Virus record (IMG/VR): IMGVR_UViG_3300023181_000005
Coordinates: 1 to 64,000 of that record
Length of the DNA: 64,000 bases
Strand: one strand, 5' to 3'
From: a virus
The position numbers and the translations under genes were made by a program. How positions within the stretch are numbered: position 1 is the stretch's first letter; each line of letters opens with the position of its first letter. Positions 12,823-15,055 of the stretch are shown piece after piece. A model generated the notes under the pieces. The model saw only the letters and a program-made list of their open reading frames with translations, ran no database searches and was not told where the DNA came from.

Positions 12823-13031
12823 TTCAGATGGAATCGAATCATGTTTAAGCAGGTGATAATATCATCAGCTCTTTTCTGGTCGCTGGAAGGCTCAACATAA
12901 TCAGCAGGCATCCCAGGCCCACATGGGCCACTCTTCCCTAAAGGACCAGAACCTAACGGAATACAAATCTCATTATAGATCGACTCAACCTCAGACCAAG
13001 CTTTGTCGAGCCTGTCAGAATAATCACTCAT
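12819..13031 (-). CDS. Small protein with four collagen-like triplets
   Basis: The 70-residue protein is overlapped at both ends by ATGA junctions. The ATG at 13031 is chosen because it overlaps the oxygenase stop; an upstream in-frame start at 13055 lies inside that gene. The N-terminus (about 25 residues) looks helical. A short stretch, GPLGKSGPCGPG, follows Gly-X-Y spacing and includes one Lys and one Cys. It lies directly between the oxygenase and the DUF115-like gene. The function is unknown. Confidence 0.7.
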   Translation of the reverse strand: MSDYSDRLDKAWSEVESIYNEICIPLGSGPLGKSGPCGPGMPADYVEPSSDQKRADDIITCLNMIRFHLK

Positions 13032-13717
13032 CGGAATGGGGGGCCTTTGAACCAAGTCACCAGCGAGTACCGCTTGCCGCTCTCAACCTGAGTCACCTGA
13101 TGGCGGTTGAAAGCAGGGAAGAAAATCATGTCACCTTGACCGCCAAACTCGCCTTCAGCCAGCGGCCCACCTTGCAACTCAAGCTTTCCGCCTGTGTAGG
13201 TAGTGGGATCTGAAAGCTGAATCACCATACTCATCTTGCGTTCAAGCGGAGCGTAGTCTTGCGCTTTTTCGTTGAAGCACTTGCGAGCATTCTCTTTGGC
13301 AAAGGCCTTCTCACCATCGCTGGCATTGTGAGCAACCTGAAGGCAACCGAAATCCTTCCACCATTTATCGAAAGGATCGTAAACCCAAGTGTTATCCTCA
13401 TGCCAAGAGTAATGGCCTGCGCTTTGGGCGTCGTACTCGGTGAATTGAACCTCTGTAAAGTCGCGAATATCGAGGCCAAATGACTTATTGTTCGACCACT
13501 CAGCACGGGCGCTAATCCGATCAAACATCCAAAGCAGGTCTTTATGCCACCGTGGCAACCAGCGAATCGTTGATGATCGCATATCCTTGTTCACGACGAA
13601 CTGACCGCCGTGGCCGATGCCGCCCTCAACAGGTGGAATCGACATGCCAAAGTCAATAATGCGCTGGCACTCCTCGGGCGTGAAGCAGCCCTTCCAGATT
13701 TCTCTCCAAGATTTCAT
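13028..13717 (-). CDS. 2-oxoglutarate/Fe(II) oxygenase, prolyl-hydroxylase-like
   Basis: The 229-residue protein shows the double-stranded beta-helix signature. H106 and D108 form the HxD pair in HYSWHEDN, the distal H206 is in NRHQV, and R216 in GKRYSLV is in the place that binds 2-oxoglutarate. The strand MSMVIQLSDPTTYTGGKLEL is typical of the prolyl-4-hydroxylase/PKHD group, and FTPEEC near residue 12 is the usual N-terminal helix. Residues 110-158 form an unusually long insert after HxD. The family hydroxylates Pro or Lys side chains. The gene starts 3 bases after the collagen-like fibre gene, which makes that fibre the obvious candidate substrate. Confidence 0.85.
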   Translation of the reverse strand: MKSWREIWKGCFTPEECQRIIDFGMSIPPVEGGIGHGGQFVVNKDMRSSTIRWLPRWHKDLLWMFDRISARAEWSNNKSFGLDIRDFTEVQFTEYDAQSAGHYSWHEDNTWVYDPFDKWWKDFGCLQVAHNASDGEKAFAKENARKCFNEKAQDYAPLERKMSMVIQLSDPTTYTGGKLELQGGPLAEGEFGGQGDMIFFPAFNRHQVTQVESGKRYSLVTWFKGPPFR

Positions 13718-13720
13718 TCG

Positions 13721-15055
13721 TTAATCTCTCCAACGTTCAAGGTTTCTCTTCATCTGCTCCTCAGACTTTGGAGCAAAACGGATATGCGCACAACCTTTTC
13801 TTATGCCAGCCACCACAACAGTCACCTCATTGGCGACGATTGAAGCGCCTGCGAGAACGGTAAGCGTGCCATTTTCGACCGTTGCGCCAACTGGAACAGG
13901 GTGTGTGCAGGAGGTTGACCAGACTTTAAGAGTTTGAGGCTCGATGGTTTCGAGAAAGAGCGAATCGACTGGCATTGAGGCGCGACGAGACGAGCCCACA
14001 ATCAGAGTGTAGGTGTCGAAGAACCATGCGTCAGGAGCCTCGGCGCAGTAAAGAGCGCGAAAACCTTGGGATGTTGGGACGATAGCGAGCTTGGTTCCTG
14101 TAGGTCCGGGTGGCCCCGGAGGTCCGGGCGGTCCACCTGAAGGGCCAACGGGTCCGGTTGGTCCGATAGGCCCAATGCTGCCAGGAGGCCCAGCTACACC
14201 TGTGGGGCCAGGGTTTCCGGGCGGTCCTTGAGGGCCGTTCGGTCCTGGACCGCCAGGAGGTCCGGGCGCTCCATTGGGACCGTTAGGGCCTGGAGGCCCG
14301 ACGCCGCCCGTTGGTCCAATAGCTCCGGTTGGGCCTGGGGGGCCACCGAAAGGTCCGGTTGGTCCTACGGGTCCAGGCGAGCCAATACCTGTAGGTCCAC
14401 GGGGTCCAGTAGGGCCGGTAGTTCCAGGTGGGCCAACGGGACCAACAGGTCCAGGCCCACCGGGAGGGCCATTTGGACCAAGCGGGCCAGTCATGCCTGT
14501 AGGACCAGGAGGTCCTGGAGGACCGCCACTCGGACCGATGGGGCCTGTAGGTCCAGCGGGGCCAGTGCCACCAGGAGATCCTGGACTGCCAGGAGTACCA
14601 TTATTGCCAGATGGACCAGGAGGGCCAGGGCCACCAGTTCCGCCTGGGGTTCCAGGTGGTCCAGCCACACCTGTAGGGCCAGCAGGACCGGGAGGACCAG
14701 GGGTAGCGGGACCAGGAGGACCGGGAGCGCCTACTGGCCCAGGAGGTCCACCAAAAGGACCAGTCGGACCAGCGGGGCCTGTGCTTCCAGTTGGTCCTCT
14801 TCCGCCAGTGGGGCCAGCCGTACCAGTCGGCCCTGGAGGACCAGGAGCGCCAGAGCCTCCAGTTGGACCTGGGGCGGCATCAAATGCCTGACCACCACCT
14901 GGGCCTAGGGTTGTATTAACGCCCACAGGGTCAACGCGCATTGTGTTAGCGCCTGGAGTTGTCGTCATCAACAATCCACCACCAGCTACGTTCCACGGCT
15001 TATTTTGCCAAGGAGAATCGCTCTGGAAAATTCCTGCTGGAGTTTGGATCGCCAT
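13721..15055 (-). CDS. Collagen-like phage fibre protein 1
   Basis: The 444-residue protein has a short N-terminal anchor (about 60 residues), about 270 residues of Gly-X-Y repeats, and a C-terminal beta-rich head of about 110 residues (from [11 protein letters not shown]). Triplets are mainly GPP, GPT, GPA and GPN. The Gly register is broken at several points, for example at repeated FGGPPG and SGGPPG units. I see no Lys inside the repeat, while Thr is very common in the Y position. Collagen-like repeats form trimeric rods in phage tail fibres. The gene is followed within 3 bases by an oxygenase gene. Confidence 0.9.
14095..14880 (-). repeat. Gly-X-Y coding repeat of fibre 1
   Basis: Near-tandem 9-bp units encode collagen triplets. 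Longer units recur, such as the FGGPPGP and [10 protein letters not shown] blocks, which suggests growth by unequal exchange. The opposite strand is also open over this stretch, but only because GGN-CCN repeats give similar codons when reversed. Confidence 0.85.

Follow-up and report, generated by a model that had tools for sequence, protein, structure and literature searches.

The viral collagen prolyl hydroxylase of PBCV-1 (vCPH; 5c5t/5c5u) is a virus-encoded 2-oxoglutarate (2OG) hydroxylase from a virus of eukaryotes and has a lysine at its 2OG site. Mimivirus, likewise a virus of eukaryotes, encodes enzymes that modify its own collagen by hydroxylation and glycosylation (PMC8968730). Among cellular genes, those for the prolyl 4-hydroxylase (P4H) of B. 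anthracis (3itq/5hv0) and for P. putida PPHD (4iw3), the latter known with EF-Tu, encode compact single-domain 2OG prolyl hydroxylases; the B. anthracis enzyme hydroxylates collagen-like Pro-Pro-Gly peptides according to the passage of PMC8968730 that cites Schnicker and Dey 2016. Bacteria and viruses have been said in print to lack prolyl hydroxylases for modifying proline in the Y position (Y-Pro) of their Gly-X-Y collagens, and these collagens to show no Y-Pro preference because the enzyme is missing (PMC3368898). Cyanophage 2OG oxygenases have been classed as auxiliary metabolic genes (PMC10436341), and for those of the phrog_61 family no function was reported in the literature searched. 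A search for phage collagen together with prolyl hydroxylase returned nothing on point; subscription journals and preprints were thinly covered, so this absence is weak.

The window analyzed here, a stretch of 64,000 nucleotides, makes up most of a viral record of 69,426 bases. Six features are relevant to the comparison.

13721..15055, minus strand: collagen-like fibre gene 1, 444 aa, with a short N-terminal region, ~73-84 Gly-X-Y triplets in four blocks and a 125-residue C-terminal domain
13724..14101, minus strand: C-terminal domain of fibre 1, with a 58% identical domain in L001 and a 31% identical one in L008
13028..13717, minus strand: 2OG-Fe(II) oxygenase, prolyl-hydroxylase-like, 229 aa, with H106, D108, H206 and R216
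13250..13381, minus strand: insert after the HxD motif of the oxygenase, ~42 residues (roughly 113-156), unique to the window oxygenase
12175..12822, minus strand: MptE/DUF115-like protein, with a sub-threshold match to PF01973 (E 0.0027)
18852..19586, minus strand: second collagen-like fibre gene, 244 aa, with 40 uninterrupted Gly-X-Y triplets, 43% Y-Pro and a repeat without charged residues

The pairing of a collagen-like fibre gene with an oxygenase gene, reported in the initial annotation, is confirmed, with both open reading frames on the minus strand at the positions given above. The fibre gene stops at 13721 and the oxygenase ATG, preceded by a Shine-Dalgarno-like GGAGAG, lies at 13717, leaving a gap of 3 nt; the two are thus adjacent genes, and the description of them as fused does not hold. 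Fibre 1 is collagen-like by its match to Pfam Collagen PF01391 (E 2.9e-23, 81.8 bits against a cut-off of 27.2). When only runs of at least five triplets are counted, it contains 73 triplets in four blocks, in which Pro occupies 62% of X and 34% of Y positions, in agreement with the earlier remark that Pro is often found at Y. The triplets seen most often are GPT and GPP, and charged residues number only three over 84 triplets, with Lys and Arg almost absent. Matches of fibre 1 to PHROG tail-fibre families were obtained, but via the collagen repeat, and the L008 version of its C-terminal domain ends a different, non-collagen fibre-like protein. The second fibre could also serve the oxygenase as a substrate in trans.

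The nearest relative, L001, keeps the order of fibre C-terminal domain, oxygenase (66% identity) and MptE-like protein (65% identity, at 962-1615), and its repeat region is out of view because the contig begins at the start of the fibre C-terminal domain. Searching viral sequences with the MptE-like protein yielded no confirmed relative, and its AlphaFold model, built from two sequences, had a pLDDT of 46, too low to be used. The MptE/DUF115-like group includes flagellin glycosyltransferases, and by analogy it is conceivable that this protein transfers sugar onto the fibre.

Elsewhere, the window encodes a 2013-residue protein (3779-9820, minus strand) with local matches to PLxRFG/DarB-like proteins of Klebsiella and Salmonella phages, and a protein of the Replicase family (PF03090) that matches PriCT-1 weakly (58550-59455, minus strand); the phage also encodes a DnaB-like helicase. 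Across the right end of the window, L341 holds a 621-residue protein (827-2692; record 63826-65691) similar by eye to L001's terminase-like protein, with methyltransferase-like genes beyond it.

The oxygenase matches Pfam 2OG-FeII_Oxy_3 (PF13640; E 3.2e-11, 44.5 bits against a cut-off of 27) and, among PHROGs, phrog_61 "2OG-Fe(II) oxygenase" (E 1e-24). It thus belongs to the same family as the cyanophage 2OG-Fe(II) oxygenases, among which those of S-PRM1, S-CAM9, S-8S53 and S-8S56 also lie near a Gly-X-Y fibre but share ~35-38% identity with it and have a second oxygenase gene between fibre and enzyme. The HxD...H metal triad and the basic 2OG anchor, described earlier as intact, are so: H106, D108, H206 and R216 are all invariant across 44 aligned sequences, as are Y95, R160, K161 and W222.

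The AlphaFold model of the oxygenase (pLDDT 88.4, pTM 0.83) was compared with solved structures by Foldseek and VIA-align. PPHD (4iw3), in complex with EF-Tu, was the best match (Z 20.7), followed by Trichoplax PHD (19.4), algal P4H with a Ser-Pro peptide (19.1), human PHD2 (18.9) and PBCV-1 vCPH (17.9), the similarity spanning 163-179 residues. Nearly all of the best solved matches are protein prolyl hydroxylases and PKHD/PiuC enzymes rank lower, so that the comparison with P4H and PKHD families proposed in the initial annotation places the fold closest to peptidyl prolyl hydroxylases. By sequence the order differs: a profile of the oxygenase relatives found PKHD enzymes first, then PBCV-1 P4H (1e-8) and algal P4H (4e-8), PPHD, B. 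anthracis P4H, EGLN1 (from ~3e-4) and P3H1 (8e-4). By sequence the window oxygenase resembles the PKHD-type PiuC/YbiX enzymes most, over the C-terminal half of its core, but it stays far under the cut-offs of the PKHD NCBIfam models NF003972-NF003975 (at most 40.4 bits against 143-399). Identity is ~20% to vCPH over the aligned part and below 20% to B. anthracis P4H and PPHD. Nucleobase oxygenases were dropped as a reading, since the listed best matches by sequence or by fold include none, which by itself does not exclude them.

Collagen P4Hs are defined by a Lys as the 2OG anchor ~10 positions past the distal His, whereas Arg occupies the 2OG site in lysyl hydroxylases, P3H, PHDs and PKHDs. 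The anchor of the window oxygenase is Arg216, and Arg rather than Lys is found in 44/44 sequences; because of this, the family is kept out of the animal collagen P4H (C-P4H) class. Nor does the single 229-residue oxygenase, which is covered by the catalytic fold, have the N-terminal dimerization domain and middle peptide-substrate-binding domain which PMC9676403 describes for animal C-P4H.

A first scan with a two-sequence alignment returned only L001 again. A scan with the enzyme alignment, blind to collagen, found the enzyme at 80 viral and 8 bacterial-genome loci, and grouping at 80% identity resulted in 46 enzyme clusters. A Gly-X-Y or glycine-rich open reading frame was located within 1.1 kb of the enzyme in 28 of these clusters and within 100 nt in 14. 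The next gene was a Gly-X-Y gene in 14/46 clusters against 4.3 expected, and one lay within three genes in 23/46 against 10.6 expected (p ~1e-4 for both; the expectation came from 10,000 shuffles in which any gene of that locus was drawn at random, none of which reached the observed value). Both gene orders exist; mostly the fibre comes first, with the enzyme first in sphingomonad loci (L097 and L099, for example) and in Stenotrophomonas phage DLP6, where a collagen-bearing fibre gene is directly downstream. In the Synechococcus phage isolates S-PRM1 and S-CAM9 and in the isolates S-8S53 and S-8S56, a fibre with 55-59 triplets is found ~1 kb upstream of the enzyme. The pairing of oxygenase and collagen-like fibre is therefore supported as recurrent and non-random.

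Several of these loci have features of their own. In S-PRM1, S-8S56, S-8S53 and S-CAM9 (L004, L009, L010, L011), the triplets form a single run, Lys-rich at Y (GPKGEKGQKG), and two consecutive 2OG oxygenase genes lie behind the fibre; these are candidate lysyl hydroxylases. The loci from sphingomonad genomes (L093-L099) are prophage-like, with the oxygenase before a collagen-like gene in which X is nearly always Pro (GPSGPSGPT). More distant oxygenases in L080 and L085-L088 lie ~450 nt behind glycine-rich, nearly Pro-free fibre-like genes.

In the tree, the window oxygenase falls in a 36-row clade (support 100/98) holding nearly all collagen-linked members, and within it groups with the oxygenases of L001 and L015 (92/74). 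Four clade members with no collagen nearby (L014, L017, L018, L025) have collagen elsewhere in the record, while the records of L037 and L016 contained none; L016 shares a cluster with L017. Almost all long records of the clade contain collagen, compared with 5/40 random viral records, and Gly-X-Y genes occur in 3/120 random viral stretches. Outside the clade, the enzyme-bearing S-SM1 (174 kb), Melnitz-3 (141 kb), AG-345-E15 (66 kb) and HTVC033P (53 kb) gave no match to Pfam collagen at 1e-7, and L076 and DLP6 are exceptions with collagen-like repeats. Because some of the clade records surveyed were known positives, the argument rests on the gene shuffles and on the contrast with outside-clade and random records.

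The association does not extend significantly in the reverse direction, as 7/113 sampled phage collagen loci, compared with 3/120 random viral stretches, had the enzyme (p 0.20), and the claim that phage collagens are usually paired with it was dropped. Phage collagen can do without the enzyme, since ~94% of the sampled loci lack it in the stretch read.

Taken on sequence and modeled structure, the oxygenase probably hydroxylates prolines of the collagen-like fibre, a reading to which we assign a probability of roughly 60%. A phage-encoded peptidyl hydroxylase would be co-expressed with a collagen-like tail fibre from the gene just upstream, and would hydroxylate prolines in the Gly-X-Y rod while the trimer folds or earlier, with Fe(II), 2OG and O2 supplied by the host cell. 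Hydroxylation would then stabilize or tune a rod with almost no charged residues. The computation itself yields the gene pair, an intact catalytic site, a fold of the prolyl-hydroxylase type and the link between clade and collagen; we infer the fibre as substrate, proline as target and the stabilizing or tuning effect. Hydroxylation of collagen outside eukaryotes, which the initial annotation had raised, would be no first in general, as the B. anthracis P4H acts on collagen-like peptides in the cited passage of PMC8968730.

For the window we favor prolyl hydroxylation of the fibre because the collagens of the window and of L015 are unusually rich in Y-Pro. Human collagens have ~30% X-Pro and 35% Y-Pro (PMC3368898); the window fibres, with 34% and 43% Y-Pro, are near this latter value, at a level that few sampled phage collagens attain. 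Y-Pro of at least 34% was seen in 3/113 sampled phage collagen open reading frames, none of them with more than 16 counted triplets, a figure that is approximate because the longest-open-frame count missed the true frame of L106, which has a long Y-Pro-rich collagen and no such enzyme seen nearby. In L015 (5720-7845), from a 200-kb viral record, three short PPG-rich collagen-like open reading frames in series are followed by a small gene and then the oxygenase, and the collagen frame nearest the enzyme has 62% Y-Pro.

Across the family, Y-Pro was not enriched in enzyme-linked versus unlinked phage collagens (0.076 vs 0.072, p 0.71). No enrichment of Pro, Lys or Thr was detected in this comparison, so no shared target residue was found; a lower content of some charged residues in linked collagens is confounded by the search pattern and was not relied on. 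Partner collagens usually have Pro at X and Thr, Gln or Lys at Y, and that of L035 is Lys-rich and nearly Pro-free. The proposal of Y-Pro as target therefore stands in part: the window and L015 collagens favor it, but the lack of Y-Pro enrichment in the family, the L035 partner and Arg in place of Lys do not. A strict reading as a Y-proline 4-hydroxylase is partly supported. Judged from sequence, the target in the window clade is likely Pro, at X or Y, and across the whole oxygenase family it may vary.

Such variation is the basis of the strongest alternative, in which the family consists of fibre hydroxylases with a phage-specific target (X-Pro, Y-Lys, Y-Thr, Asn and others) and the residue modified here is not a proline but, for example, Thr, possibly as a site of sugar attachment. 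That the partners differ at Y (Thr, Gln, Lys, Pro) while the enzymes form one well-supported group is consistent with this, as are the L035 collagen, an Arg at the 2OG site like that of lysyl hydroxylases, P3H and PHDs and, for sugar attachment, the MptE/DUF115-like gene kept beside the enzyme in L001, from a group that includes flagellin glycosyltransferases. We consider it unlikely for the window, where the repeats are nearly without Lys and Arg, Pro is the dominant modifiable residue, and the matches by sequence and by fold are almost exclusively prolyl hydroxylases; the MptE-like match is moreover under the curated cut-off.

Less probable again is an enzyme that acts on a host protein or a small molecule as the product of an auxiliary metabolic gene, its adjacency to collagen reflecting a cargo position in the tail-fibre region. 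A host target is in play because PPHD, the closest fold match, was solved with EF-Tu, and both the classification of cyanophage 2OG oxygenases (PMC10436341) and the collagen-free records of relatives such as S-SM1 and Melnitz-3 fit an auxiliary role. A cargo position, however, accounts poorly for Gly-X-Y adjacency far above the same-locus expectation in both gene orders, and for how rarely a long record of the clade lacks collagen.

That the oxygenase is inactive or decayed, for instance through the insert right after HxD, which is missing from 43/43 relatives (including the 66%-identical L001 enzyme), measures ~42 residues rather than the ~50 first estimated and coincides with a weak part of the model (residues ~111-160), is very improbable given the conserved catalytic residues and remaining core, the open frame and the confident rest of the model.

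Fibre prolyl hydroxylation could be one instance of a widespread phage collagen-modification system, in which collagen-like tail fibres are accompanied by a clade of small 2OG hydroxylases, the target has diversified with the partner (Pro here, perhaps Lys or Thr elsewhere) and, in some cases, a neighboring sugar-transfer enzyme such as the MptE/DUF115-like protein acts on the hydroxylated rod. We put this forward tentatively. The earlier interpretation is partly supported, and it is widened here: the pairing first noted at a single locus is one case of a recurring association.

The window oxygenase is built like the enzymes whose hydroxylation hardens animal collagen, and the pairing with a collagen-like gene is repeated in numerous further phages; modified collagen may thus be a phage product. 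Should a phage lineage combine Y-Pro-rich collagen fibres with a hydroxylase linked to them, the statement that viruses lack such enzymes (PMC3368898) would no longer hold for phages. If true, this would also explain what some members of a large group of phage 2OG oxygenases do, a group so far unexplained and now regarded as auxiliary metabolic genes (PMC10436341), and would offer compact enzymes from bacterial hosts for producing hydroxylated collagen.
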